Assembly: GCA_016936955.1 (NCBI GenBank)
Contig: JAFGWW010000289.1
Location: forward strand, 1 to 32,877
Length of the DNA stretch: 32,877 bases
Source: Planctomycetota bacterium
GTDB taxonomy: Bacteria > Planctomycetota > SZUA-567
Reading direction: 5' to 3'
The notes beneath the pieces are model-generated. The model ran no database searches and was not told where the DNA came from. It saw only the letters and a list, made by a program, of their open reading frames with translations. Position numbers and translations under genes: made by a program. Of this stretch, positions 22,331 through 30,764 are shown piece by piece (positions within the stretch are counted from its first letter, which is position 1; the number at the start of each line of letters is the position of its first letter).

Positions 22331-22978
22331 ATGATGTTCAAGAGAGGTTTACATGCCTTTACGCTTGTAGAGCTTCTTGTGGTCTGCTCGGTAATCAGCA
22401 TTCTGGCGTCGCTTTTACTGCCGGCCCTGCAAAGAGCCATGACCTCTGCGCGCACCATAAAATGCGCAAGCAACCTGAAGCAGATGGGTGTTTTTGAGCA
22501 GTTTTATATCGATCAGAATGCTGGTTCATTCCAGCAGATTAAAATAGGTGGTGGCTCGCCGACATGGCGAGACCCGATTATAGAAATTGCGTTTGATGAC
22601 AGCAGATATGTTGATGAGGGTGATGTCAAAAATATCCGTGACCACATATTCCGCTGCCCGGAAGCGAATTTTGTGACGGGGAGCAATTCATGGAATAACC
22701 TGAAGGTTTATGGAGGCAACGCAAACCTCAGCGCAAAAAAGAGTTCTATGTTCCCCAAGCCGTCCATGACGCTTTTCTCGCTGGATGCATCCTATGCAAG
22801 CGGGAATAATGCCATCGCCACAGCCTATACCGACCCTACTGTCTGGTTCCGGTGGCGCCATGGTGATGAGAATAAACTGAATATCGTATGGCTTGACGGG
22901 CATGTGGGGCCGTACTTGATCTGGGATTACACAAAAGTATCGATGTCTCAGGCATTCAATCCGTACTACACTCCATAA
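22331..22978 (+). CDS. Type II secretion-like pseudopilin
   Basis: [46 protein letters not shown]-terminal WRHGDENKLNIVWLDGH variant; GGAGG RBS before ATG 22331. Confidence 0.9.
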   Translation: MMFKRGLHAFTLVELLVVCSVISILASLLLPALQRAMTSARTIKCASNLKQMGVFEQFYIDQNAGSFQQIKIGGGSPTWRDPIIEIAFDDSRYVDEGDVKNIRDHIFRCPEANFVTGSNSWNNLKVYGGNANLSAKKSSMFPKPSMTLFSLDASYASGNNAIATAYTDPTVWFRWRHGDENKLNIVWLDGHVGPYLIWDYTKVSMSQAFNPYYTP

Positions 22979-26198: not shown

Positions 26199-26705
26199 GA
26201 CTGTACTCGTTATCGGGTGCTTGGATTGTATGGTCATCGCATCGCAGGTAACACACTGATGTTTCTTGAAAGAGTAATCGAAGAAATGCATTTCCCGGTT
26301 CAGCGAATTCAGACCGACCGGGGGCGAGAATTCTTTGCTTATAAGGTGCAAGAGCGAATGCTCGATTGGGGTATAAAATTCAGGCCTGTCAGACCGGCTT
26401 CCCCACATCTTAACGGCAAGGTTGAGCGGTCGCAGAAAACAGATCTGGAAGAATTTTATGCGATTCAGGACTTGAGCGATCCTGAATTGTCAGATCGCCT
26501 TGATGAATGGCAGCATTACTATAACTGGGAACGTCCGCATGGCAGCTTATCAGGCAAAACGCCCATGGAGCGCTACTGCGAATTATCTTCCCATACACCA
26601 ATTCAAGATGATGTTGACAAACTTTTTGATCCTTCGAAGGAGCGGATAAGAGAAATGAATTATCGTAAGGATCTGGAGCTTTCAAGGTTGAAAGGATGTC
26701 TATGA
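26199..26705 (+). mobile_element. Truncated IS481-type (DDE) transposase, C-terminal part only
   Basis: DCTRYRVLGLYGHR…RIQTDRGREFFAYKVQERMLDWGIKFRPVRPASPHLNGKVERSQKTDLEEFYA…WQHYYNWERPHGSLSGKTPMERY; N-terminal HTH and first part of the catalytic core missing. Confidence 0.85.
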
Positions 26706-26751: not shown

Positions 26752-28620
26752 TCATCTACTCTTTGATAATGTGTATTTCTTCGTAACCTCGTCAAAAACG
26801 AGCAATTTTTTGTTTTCCTCATACCACTTAACAATATATGCATAATCCCCCTTTACTCCGGTAAGATCACATATGATTCGCCTGATTTCTGGTTTGGCAT
26901 AGGAATCTTGCTCCGTTGAAGTTAACGGCGTCACGAGCTGCTCAAGAGCGTCCTTATTTCCTCTCGGCGCCAATATCTTTGCAACAGGCACCAATTCCCA
27001 TCCGCCTTCAGTTTTTAGCCTATCCCAAAGAGATTGTAACGCAGGCTCCAACTCAAAGCCGGGAAGATTTTTCACGCTTTCGAAAGTCATATGAGGATTT
27101 AAGCCATTTACCAAATACCATTTCAGATCATTATAGGCCGAGGGATCTTCCAAATTTGCCACTGCTTGAATCCACTCAGTCCTAATGAAATCTTTGCGCT
27201 TACTCATCTCTTTAACAAGAATATCCTTGGCGTCTATTTCCCAACTGCGTGACAGGATAACTTTTATCAGGTCTTTGTTATTTTGCAAATTGCCAATAAT
27301 CAAACTTTTATTGCTATCATCAGCGAGATTATCAATTGCTTGGCATAAACGCCAACTTGAAACTCCCTCGTAAAAGGGAAGCGCGTCAATAAGCAGTGGG
27401 ATATTATTCTTCCCAACTTTCATTAACATATAAACTTCTATAGAATCTTCTTCGTTGAAGCCATTATGCGATTTGGTTACGCCAAGAACGTTATCAATAT
27501 AATCGCGCACCTGCTCCACGGTTGGGTTATCCGCCAAGACAATCTTGCGGAGTTCTTTTGGATCAAAGGCATTTTCACGGTTAACGATCATTGACCCAGA
27601 TCCAACCTGTACCGGCGGGAAAGGTCGATTTGAAGTAATTAAGGAAATCGTATTCGAATCCACGTAGTCAGAAACTTTTAGTTCAAGCTTTCTCGAATCT
27701 TTAGGCCAATTCTCCTCCACAGTCATCATATGGGATCCGTTTGTATCGGCAAAGACGAGAAAGACTTTTGATGGAAGGCGCTGCTCACCGTTGCTTCTCT
27801 CCAGCATCCGGTTTATTTTCTCTGAGTCACTATCAAAAGACCAAATACGCTTAGGCCAGAGTTTCTCAGAAGATGTCTTTTTTGCATCTTCAAGAGCGCT
27901 AGTGATAACATATCCTGAATACATCCACTCAGCGGATGTGTCATTATTAATCGTAAGACGATATGGCTCATCAAACTCTGCGAGCATTACATGTTGAATA
28001 ATTACAGCAATGATAAGGATAACAACGGGAATCAACGCTAGCAACCACATCGAATGGTGACAAACAATTGGTTGCGCTAAAGTTCCACTTCGTTCTGCTT
28101 CCCTCATGCGTACAAGTGCCCGGATAATCCGCGAACGGAAAATGCAGAACCCAAGAGCCAGAACGATAGAATAAAACAGGGACAAAATAGAGAGGGCTAA
28201 ACCATTTGCCAGCTCATCGGGGCTATCAGTGCCTGAAATCAGCATTCTAACCAAACCAATTAAGGCACCAGCCGAACCTGCAAGAATTGAAAGGCGTATA
28301 CCAGTGGAAAATATATCCTCAGCTATGGTGGCTTCTCTTTCTGAACGCACATAACCTTTAACTGCACACCACAAAGCATTATAAGGCTGACGCATACCAT
28401 GCCCAGCAAGCAACCCACCTAACACAATACCGCCCACTACAGGCATGAATGGCAGATCAATAAAGACAGGTATGTTCTCAACACCAAAACCAAATATTAC
28501 GTAAGCTATCAGTATAAGAGATAAGCCACCTATCGCAGACCAGTCCCCGATAGAGACCTTCTGGAGCTGAATCTCTTCTGGCGTGTCATTAATCTTTTTC
28601 TGTGCTTCCTCACTCATCAT
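26752..28620 (-). CDS. Membrane protein with MotA/TolQ/ExbB-like region and long C-terminal helical-repeat-like domain
   Basis: Several TM segments (LSILAGSAGALIGLVRMLIS…LALSILSLFYSIVLALGFCIF) like MotA/TolQ/ExbB, another TM (WLLALIPVVILIIAVIIQHV), then about 400 aa soluble. Start at ATG 28620 (RBS-like AGGGCAAGGGAG); the ORF opens at 28752. Confidence 0.6.
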   Translation of the reverse strand: MMSEEAQKKINDTPEEIQLQKVSIGDWSAIGGLSLILIAYVIFGFGVENIPVFIDLPFMPVVGGIVLGGLLAGHGMRQPYNALWCAVKGYVRSEREATIAEDIFSTGIRLSILAGSAGALIGLVRMLISGTDSPDELANGLALSILSLFYSIVLALGFCIFRSRIIRALVRMREAERSGTLAQPIVCHHSMWLLALIPVVILIIAVIIQHVMLAEFDEPYRLTINNDTSAEWMYSGYVITSALEDAKKTSSEKLWPKRIWSFDSDSEKINRMLERSNGEQRLPSKVFLVFADTNGSHMMTVEENWPKDSRKLELKVSDYVDSNTISLITSNRPFPPVQVGSGSMIVNRENAFDPKELRKIVLADNPTVEQVRDYIDNVLGVTKSHNGFNEEDSIEVYMLMKVGKNNIPLLIDALPFYEGVSSWRLCQAIDNLADDSNKSLIIGNLQNNKDLIKVILSRSWEIDAKDILVKEMSKRKDFIRTEWIQAVANLEDPSAYNDLKWYLVNGLNPHMTFESVKNLPGFELEPALQSLWDRLKTEGGWELVPVAKILAPRGNKDALEQLVTPLTSTEQDSYAKPEIRRIICDLTGVKGDYAYIVKWYEENKKLLVFDEVTKKYTLSKSR

Positions 28621-28730: not shown

Positions 28731-30647
28731 TTAATGATTTATCCAGCCGCATACGGTAAAAGACCTGTCACCCTGTTGGCCAGAGCGGGGAGCCAGGTCT
28801 GCGCCAGATAAATCCTTTGCCTTGCCATCCATGCTCGCGCGGATGTATATCGAATAGTCGCTGTCGCGGAAGTTCTCGCTGGTGAAGGAGAGGAATGCCT
28901 CTGAGTTTTTGACTATGTATGGGATTGCCTGCGGCAGAGGGTTCATCTTGGTCGCCGAGATATAATTGTATGCTCCCAGCAGTTCGGTTTTGGCCTTGTT
29001 GGTTGTTGCGATGAAGGGGGCGGGTCCTTCCGTCTTGAAACCGAGTATCCACAGCCTGCCGACATCATTGGTTACCTGCGCTTCCGATCCGTCCCCTTCC
29101 CAATTTTCCGGGTTGAACTGCCGGGCCCAGACCGATTGATTCCGGAACTCCCATCCCGGCAGGAATGTATCTTCAATAAAAACCTTGCCATTCGCCATCC
29201 TGGTGTTCCGATATGAGCGTGCATGTCCGCCATTGCCAACCCATCCGCCGCAGTGCCGTATAACCAGCGGCTTGGGCGAGTTATTGAGCAGTAACAGTTC
29301 GCCCGGATATTGGGCGTTGAAAAACATGTGGTCGAGAAAGAGGGGTTTCTTTCCATCTGTCTTGTCTATCTGGAAGAGGGGGCGGGGATTATCGATATTG
29401 GAAAACTCCTCCTTGGCTCCGCCAAGATTTATCTCAGCGCCAAAGCCGAAAATCTGTTTGACCTTGCCCCGGATTATAACGGTATTGGATATGAAATAGA
29501 TGCGTTCATTGCGAAAGTAAATGGTGGACTTGCCTGCATCGATTGCCCTTTGTATTGCCGCAGTATCGTCTTTTTCGTCAGGTTCCCTTTCTCCGACCAC
29601 CTGCCAGTCGTCGGGATTGCTATTGACGTACGAGGGTGTTTCTTCTACCGGGATAAGAGCGGCTCCAGACGTGTTGCCGGGAAAAGCGGGGAAGGCGATA
29701 GTGTCTTTGCTACTGGCTGGCATATCTGTTCCGCGCACGGTCATCTCGGGCTTGCGGTATCCTTCGATAAAAACATTGCGAAGCAGTATATTGCCGTTGC
29801 ATTGAATGGCTGGTTTATCAGGCGCAAGGCCAATGAGTTTCGAATCAACCATGGTCAGCACCCCGCGGCTACCGGTTATAAGGGCAGCCGGTACCCGGTT
29901 GCGGCTGATCAGGTTGCGTACATGAAGCAGATTCTCGCTAATGCGAAGGCCGCAGACTGTCTGGCCGGACAGGTCGAGCCTCTCGATTGTAACTCCATAC
30001 TGCACATCCCCGATATCAATGCCGGTTTGAAAACCGAAGATGCGGACGTCTTTTATCAGGCCGGGGCCGGGAATTTTCCGGCGTAAAGAAATGCCTGCCA
30101 CTCCGTCGCCAATAATGGATACCCGGCCGATTGTTCCGTGGTTGCTGACTGCCCATTCCACTCCCTGCGCCCCCGGGTTGCCGTTGCCGGTGTGGATTGT
30201 CAGGTCGAAAATATTGTTTCTAAACGCCTTATTGCCGCCACCGCCGGGTCCGTCCCCCTCTTGTTGATGGGAACCGGTCATCAGAACCGCCATTGGTGCT
30301 GATGGATCGCCAAAGCCGGTGGCTTTATCGGAAAGCCGGATCAGTGTTTTGTCGCGCCCTGCGCCCTGTAGTGTAAGTTGGGCGCGCCACTTTCCCGTTT
30401 TGTCTATAGCCTTTAAAGTGCGGTTGATATTGTATGTGCCGGCCGGGAGAAAGATGAATCGGCCCGTGCCGGCATTGTCTGTGATTGCCTTCTGTAATGC
30501 GTCGGTATCATCAGCCCCGTCATCCGGAACGGCGTTGTATGGTGACTTGGTTACATCAACCACAGCGTCGGAAGGAAAATAAGGCTCTTCGGCCTTAGCG
30601 AAGGGTGCAAGGCTTATGGCCAAAAATAGTACGGCGATAATTCGCAT
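28731..30647 (-). CDS. Secreted pectate-lyase-superfamily protein with two tandem beta-helix (GH55/PF12708-like) domains
   Basis: Signal peptide MRIIAVLFLAISLAPFAKAEE; VPDDGADDTDALQKAI…FLPAGTYNINRTL and a second EPDEKDDTAAIQRAIDAGKSTIYFRNERIYFISNTV. Confidence 0.78.
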   Translation of the reverse strand: MRIIAVLFLAISLAPFAKAEEPYFPSDAVVDVTKSPYNAVPDDGADDTDALQKAITDNAGTGRFIFLPAGTYNINRTLKAIDKTGKWRAQLTLQGAGRDKTLIRLSDKATGFGDPSAPMAVLMTGSHQQEGDGPGGGGNKAFRNNIFDLTIHTGNGNPGAQGVEWAVSNHGTIGRVSIIGDGVAGISLRRKIPGPGLIKDVRIFGFQTGIDIGDVQYGVTIERLDLSGQTVCGLRISENLLHVRNLISRNRVPAALITGSRGVLTMVDSKLIGLAPDKPAIQCNGNILLRNVFIEGYRKPEMTVRGTDMPASSKDTIAFPAFPGNTSGAALIPVEETPSYVNSNPDDWQVVGEREPDEKDDTAAIQRAIDAGKSTIYFRNERIYFISNTVIIRGKVKQIFGFGAEINLGGAKEEFSNIDNPRPLFQIDKTDGKKPLFLDHMFFNAQYPGELLLLNNSPKPLVIRHCGGWVGNGGHARSYRNTRMANGKVFIEDTFLPGWEFRNQSVWARQFNPENWEGDGSEAQVTNDVGRLWILGFKTEGPAPFIATTNKAKTELLGAYNYISATKMNPLPQAIPYIVKNSEAFLSFTSENFRDSDYSIYIRASMDGKAKDLSGADLAPRSGQQGDRSFTVCGWINH

Positions 30648-30764
30648 TGTATTTTCCTTTCCGTGAAGGAATAAAGCGTGCACCTGAGACGCTGCAAATA
30701 AGCGATAGATACATAAAGCCTTGTTTCTTGAACATTGTCAAGGGGATTAATATGGCGTGCTGTG

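Follow-up and report, generated by a model that had tools for sequence, protein, structure and literature searches.

MotA-type proteins have been treated as A subunits whose genes typically adjoin the gene for a B subunit, and the flagellar A subunits have been described as structurally uniform (PMC12505986). Those of the flagellar FIT group, which includes MotA and PomA, are distinguished from the GIT group of ExbB, TolQ, and AglR, for which A subunits bearing additional domains at the N and C termini have been reported (PMC12505986). Partial deletions of the torque-generating interface (TGI) in MotA abolish motility in E. coli (PMC12505986), and Pro173 and Pro222 of E. coli MotA regulate the conformational changes of torque generation (PMC6677748). 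In Campylobacter, the periplasmic solenoids PflA and PflB position and scaffold stators (PMC12222027). Here, we describe a planctomycete gene that combines a MotA-type membrane module with a helical-repeat domain.

A MotA-type membrane module in a 622-residue protein

The window analyzed, a DNA stretch of 32,877 nucleotides, is contig C104 of a 3.66-Mb genome that comprises 506 contigs and is 61% complete. The gene at 26752..28620 on the minus strand runs from 28620 to 26752 and holds 622 codons plus a stop; it is a real gene frame, encoding in order a membrane module that we call mini-MotA, a fifth transmembrane helix, a middle domain, and a HEAT-type domain. Because a ribosome-site-like AGGGAG stretch lies at 28628-28623, 5' of ATG codons at 28620 and 28617, we favor one of these two as the start; an alternative in-frame ATG upstream would carry the ORF to 28752, within the neighboring gene. 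GC (0.41-0.45) and GC3 (0.39-0.43) are low through all three modules and well below those of the neighbors (GC 0.48-0.53; GC3 0.56-0.59 in three of them), and with a transposase fragment alongside, horizontal gain of the gene is possible. The uniformity of these values, unlike those of the neighbors, also argues against an assembly chimera of two genes. That the fusion was seen once, in a single incomplete genome of 506 contigs, would fit such an artifact, but the one open frame and the existence elsewhere of a five-helix mini-MotA with a C-terminal extension (L026:7268-8323) leave it scarcely credible.

The original prediction assigned the N-terminal third to a TolQ/MotA-type proton-channel subunit. 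A membrane module of the MotA/TolQ/ExbB type is indeed recovered by both family profile and fold search, at residues 20-186 (28063..28563, minus strand), with four transmembrane helices and a shortened loop between the second and third. Scored alone, the window protein is sub-threshold for Pfam MotA_ExbB (PF01618; 17.5-20.4 bits versus a cut-off of 22.9), and NCBIfam returned PomA/MotP only, at 13-14 bits; four relatives pass the PF01618 gathering cut-off. Used as a query, the window protein retrieved its own genome's flagellar MotA as well as stand-alone proteins of 160-350 aa in relatives, from which we built a profile, A3. This family profile gave the strong relationship that single-sequence Pfam shows weakly, matching MotA and PomA among PDB sequences with E values of 1e-11 to 7e-4 and retrieving neither ExbB nor TolQ from the PDB. 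A structure model of the module, for which the alignment contained no MotA, has a transmembrane core with pLDDT mostly 80-94 and is poor in the remainder; in a fold search of the PDB, its best 20 matches are all MotA or PomA (probability 0.72-1.00, with 12 of 20 at 1.00, although E values are only 0.007-0.18), and ExbB/TolQ rank lower. The N-terminal third is therefore related to flagellar MotA/PomA rather than to ExbB/TolQ, and only the MotA half of the earlier assignment holds. With the GIT group it has in common a condensed cytoplasmic loop, but its fold matches to ExbB/TolQ are weaker, PDB profile matches to them are absent, and no ExbD/TolR gene is adjacent.

When A3 was searched against the phylum, MotAs of ~260 aa were matched in two segments, TM1-TM2 (profile positions ~8-72) and TM3-TM4 (~90-155), and since the MotA cytoplasmic loop lies between them, the module corresponds to MotA minus most of the 2-3 loop. 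On the minus strand of the window, hydropathy and charge count place TM1, periplasmic loop 1 (ENIPVFID), and TM2 at residues 28-75 (28396..28539); loop-length comparison identifies residues 76-107 (28300..28395) as the remnant of the cytoplasmic, torque-generating loop of MotA; and the Pfam MotA_ExbB stretch covers TM3, periplasmic loop 2, and TM4 at residues 108-165 (28126..28299). The spacing between TM2 and TM3 is thereby ~32 aa, versus ~100 aa in the MotA of the same genome. What had been read as a TM hairpin proved to be part of a protein with five hydrophobic helices. The fifth (TM5, residues 188-211; 27988..28059, minus strand) is present in other mini-MotAs too. Lys and Arg number 3-4 in each predicted cytoplasmic loop and are missing from the two predicted periplasmic loops; the predicted topology is N-in, C-out, with TM5 bringing the C terminus, and hence the HEAT repeats, into the periplasm. 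This topology agrees with the exported appearance of homologs of the C-terminal module. ZorA, of the Zorya anti-phage defense, likewise consists of a MotA-type module and a long extra part; that part is cytoplasmic, and ZorA works with ZorB. A PADLOC search with the window protein gave no match, none to a ZorA profile included.

We compared functional residues in an alignment of 26 MotAs and 12 mini-MotAs. A Pro and a Thr in TM3, two Thr in TM4, and a Pro at the end of TM4 are invariant in 26 of 26 MotAs; in the window protein, the residues corresponding to P, T, T, T, and P of MotAs are I, A, S, L, and F. Neither the TM3 Pro nor the second TM4 Thr is retained in any of the 12 mini-MotAs, the TM4 Pro is kept in one, the TM3 Thr in five, and the first TM4 Thr in four, and an aromatic plus acidic motif (F/Y-x-D/E) occurs in periplasmic loop 1 of all 12. 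Because all five TM3 and TM4 prolines and threonines are replaced, ion conduction by the window protein is unlikely; it probably does not conduct ions, and the designation as a proton-channel subunit is unlikely to hold. Together with the short loop and fifth helix, the lost residues, the predicted periplasmic C terminus, and the lack of an adjacent gene for MotB (with its plug) separate it from MotA/PomA, with which it shares the four-helix fold, the sequence of TM1-2 and TM3-4, and the periplasmic loops. The same comparison bears on a further idea, in which the protein is a functional motor subunit powered by ion flow: it would use the resident MotB, or an ExbD encoded at a distance, and set the HEAT domain in motion much as TonB is driven by ExbB/ExbD. 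Such a motor could draw on the retained MotA fold, on the TM3 Thr kept in some stand-alone relatives, and on an ExbD gene (G000:C244) at a contig edge with no visible ExbB, but the replacement of both prolines and all three threonines, the role of Pro173/Pro222 in torque generation by E. coli MotA (PMC6677748), and the lack of an adjacent B subunit make it very improbable.

Mini-MotAs and the resident stator

Mini-MotAs are apparently a small, undescribed family of loop-less four-helix MotAs that form a clade apart from MotA. Stand-alone members of 160-350 aa occur in the same planctomycete order, and nine order-level mini-MotAs from five genomes group as one clade in a tree that is limited by long branches. 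In the AU test, a scenario in which every mini-MotA arose separately from its own-genome MotA was rejected (delta lnL 155, p-AU 7.5e-5), a rejection that long-branch attraction could favor. Scanning the genome contigs with the single window protein found nothing, and a two-sequence alignment found only the two copies in G005, a relative of the same family. A second, divergent mini-MotA in the window genome (L072:2397-2915) is encoded beside hydF and has FIEPQS.AIV in common with the resident MotA. In genome G007, three mini-MotA genes stand in a row (L026:7268-9467) without MotB or ExbD beside them, and the first (L026:7268-8323) encodes the fifth helix and a predicted periplasmic extension of ~140 aa. 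More distant loop-less MotA-like proteins from other planctomycete families (L073:4148-4789, L074:7141-7815, and L075:1069-1611) branch closer to MotA than do the order-level mini-MotAs and may represent separate loop losses.

The family is diverse, fast-evolving, and patchy, and the low GC of the window gene lies next to a transposase remnant, features that would suit decaying, functionless MotA duplicates, one of which had run into a HEAT gene. Against decay stand the 622-aa open frame, the conserved periplasmic residues, the repeated presence of the fifth helix, and a dN/dS of ~0.21 between two G005 paralogs, indicative of purifying selection, and we consider it unlikely.

Exactly one MotB_plug protein is encoded in each of the five order-level mini-MotA genomes, adjoining full-length MotA, and no B subunit is adjacent to the mini-MotAs of these genomes. 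The only MotB found in the window genome, itself 61% complete, is G000:C472, beside full-length MotA. No MotB or ExbD gene was found in the window, in line with the first note; the ExbD matches of this genome lie on other contigs and none on C104. Most ExbD genes are near ExbB genes, and two exceptions, G000:C244 (at the contig edge) and G005:C31:15726, leave a distant orphan B subunit conceivable. Elsewhere in the window genome, an ExbB is followed by three ExbD matches (L040:269-1851, G000:C346). The neighbors of mini-MotAs vary by genome (LarA-like, SocA-like, LpxB, HydF, and aminopeptidase), and no flagellar genes were recognized near those order-level mini-MotAs whose neighborhoods were read.

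By identity, the MotA of the same genome ranks first for seven of the nine mini-MotAs and second for the other two (exact permutation 1/120, resting on five genomes), and amino-acid composition explains 0.05 of the 4.5-residue excess shared with it. Residues private to a mini-MotA and its own MotA, relative to other MotAs, are concentrated in TM1 (19 versus 8.75) and periplasmic loop 1 (36 versus 11.5); the cytoplasmic segment shows no such excess (11 versus 11.5). For the window protein, the signal is marginal (38 identities, with 37 to the next MotA). In the three stretches compared, only 25-44% of the residues shared with the own MotA use the same codon, which disfavors a recent gene conversion from motA. 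We take the resemblance as a hint that mini-MotAs co-evolve with the resident stator; partial conversion long ago, or an effect of long branches on the tree, is a possible alternative source.

The HEAT-type module and its relatives

Beyond the membrane, the original prediction described a soluble region of ~400 aa with helical repeats. The repeats were borne out for the last ~270 aa, and the first ~140 aa (residues 212-350; 27571..27987, minus strand) constitute a separate middle domain with no Pfam match and an AF2 pLDDT below 50. Homology of this domain with the L026:7268-8323 extension was considered and set aside, the match not being significant. Residues 351-622 (26755..27570, minus strand) form an alpha solenoid of HEAT type, with a WYEENK..L.FD...KY motif at its end. 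A profile search of this module found HEAT and designed HEAT (alphaRep) proteins with an E value of 2e-8, and AlphaFold (AF2) predicts, with a mean pLDDT of 91, an almost all-helical solenoid of ~16 helices in antiparallel pairs. Its HEAT_2 score is below the Pfam cut-off, and since Foldseek comparison of the model to the PDB gave weak matches (best E 0.047), the label HEAT-type rests on profile and model. The fold and repeat signal are those of HEAT_2/alphaRep-type solenoids, but the repeats are divergent, carry their own C-terminal motif, and belong to a distinct exported planctomycete family.

Homologs of the module are ~320-520 aa long, most of them having a signal-peptide-like start followed by coiled-coil-like segments, and elsewhere they look like stand-alone exported proteins. 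Two neighboring copies occur in G151 (L087), and a 654-aa frame in another genome (G310:C165:2262-3872) contains two modules. The module was found in 17 of 392 phylum genomes. Within the order it occurs in 4 of 18, all four among the five mini-MotA carriers (p 0.0016, or 0.006 without the window genome; p 0.0002 and 0.002, respectively, in the phylum sample, all ignoring kinship). The fusion itself had been called unusual, and the homolog search detected it in this one incomplete genome only. No description of such proteins or of a membrane-HEAT family was found in the libraries and papers searched, a coverage outside which most subscription papers fall. Fusion here and co-occurrence elsewhere suggest a functional link between mini-MotA and the HEAT-type module.

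Genomic setting and possible roles

The flanks are as first described. On one side, a convergent transposase (rve_3) fragment occupies 26217-26705; on the other, the upstream same-strand gene at 28731-30683 encodes a pectate-lyase-like beta-helix protein. A second upstream same-strand gene encodes a protein with weak carbohydrate-binding matches, and sugar metabolism accounts for most of what remains of the window (GH39/GH42/GH5-type enzymes, an MFS transporter, GFO/IDH/MocA oxidoreductases, and LacI/AraC/GntR-type regulators). The gene at 22337-22978, which directly follows that of a GntR/LacI-type hybrid regulator and precedes that of a GH5 enzyme, encodes a pseudopilin-like protein carrying a prepilin methylation motif. 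The 26752..28620 gene follows, on its own strand, genes for secreted carbohydrate-related proteins. This position, the loss of ion-path residues, and the lack of a conserved flagellar neighborhood fit a nonflagellar reading in which the MotA fold is only an anchor: the helix bundle would oligomerize in the membrane and carry a HEAT scaffold in the periplasm, perhaps for the use of polysaccharides. However, the relatives whose neighbors were typed are not near carbohydrate genes, and the resemblance to the own-genome MotA falls in the periplasmic loop; we regard the anchor as a possibility of some weight, though not the leading one.

The window protein is very likely a non-conducting mini-MotA with a periplasmic HEAT-type domain. 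As to its role, our tentative preference, held at somewhat less than even confidence, is a pseudo-stator that presents a periplasmic HEAT scaffold and acts on the resident MotA/MotB. This MotA paralog has shed its torque-generating loop in the cytoplasm as well as its ion-path residues while retaining the four-helix fold and periplasmic face, and a gained fifth helix would, given the predicted topology, display the ~270-aa solenoid in the periplasm. The MotA fold may mediate assembly, either of the protein by itself or alongside MotA, while the HEAT domain may bind a periplasmic partner. The likeliest target would be the resident flagellar MotA/MotB, positioned, latched, or regulated from the periplasmic side. 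PflA/PflB offer a working analogy, as inner-membrane-associated periplasmic helical solenoids that position stators, but they are TPR rather than HEAT proteins and lack a MotA fold, and we claim no homology.

The pseudo-stator reading draws on the MotA-specific matches, the replaced Pro/Thr, and the retained F/Y-x-D/E; on the single MotB beside MotA, with none beside mini-MotAs, in genomes that carry full-length MotAB in five of five cases; on an own-MotA resemblance strongest in TM1 and periplasmic loop 1; and on the co-occurrence of the two modules, the exported-looking C-module homologs, and the dN/dS value. Weighing against it are the occurrence of the fusion in one incomplete genome, the marginal own-MotA signal of the window protein, the lack of recognized flagellar genes near the order-level mini-MotAs read, the location of the gene in a polysaccharide-degradation region, the long branches, and the five-genome permutation. 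More speculatively, and rather doubtfully at present, mini-MotAs in general might be non-conducting, rotor-blind regulatory stator subunits that enter, or attach to, the resident MotA/MotB complex via the periplasmic face, mixing working and idle A subunits, with the one described here bearing its own HEAT scaffold. A MotA membrane fold without rotor interface, ion path, or partner gene would demonstrate that reuse of the stator fold does not require the motor, and mini-MotA offers a candidate natural regulator of stator assembly that can be tested directly.
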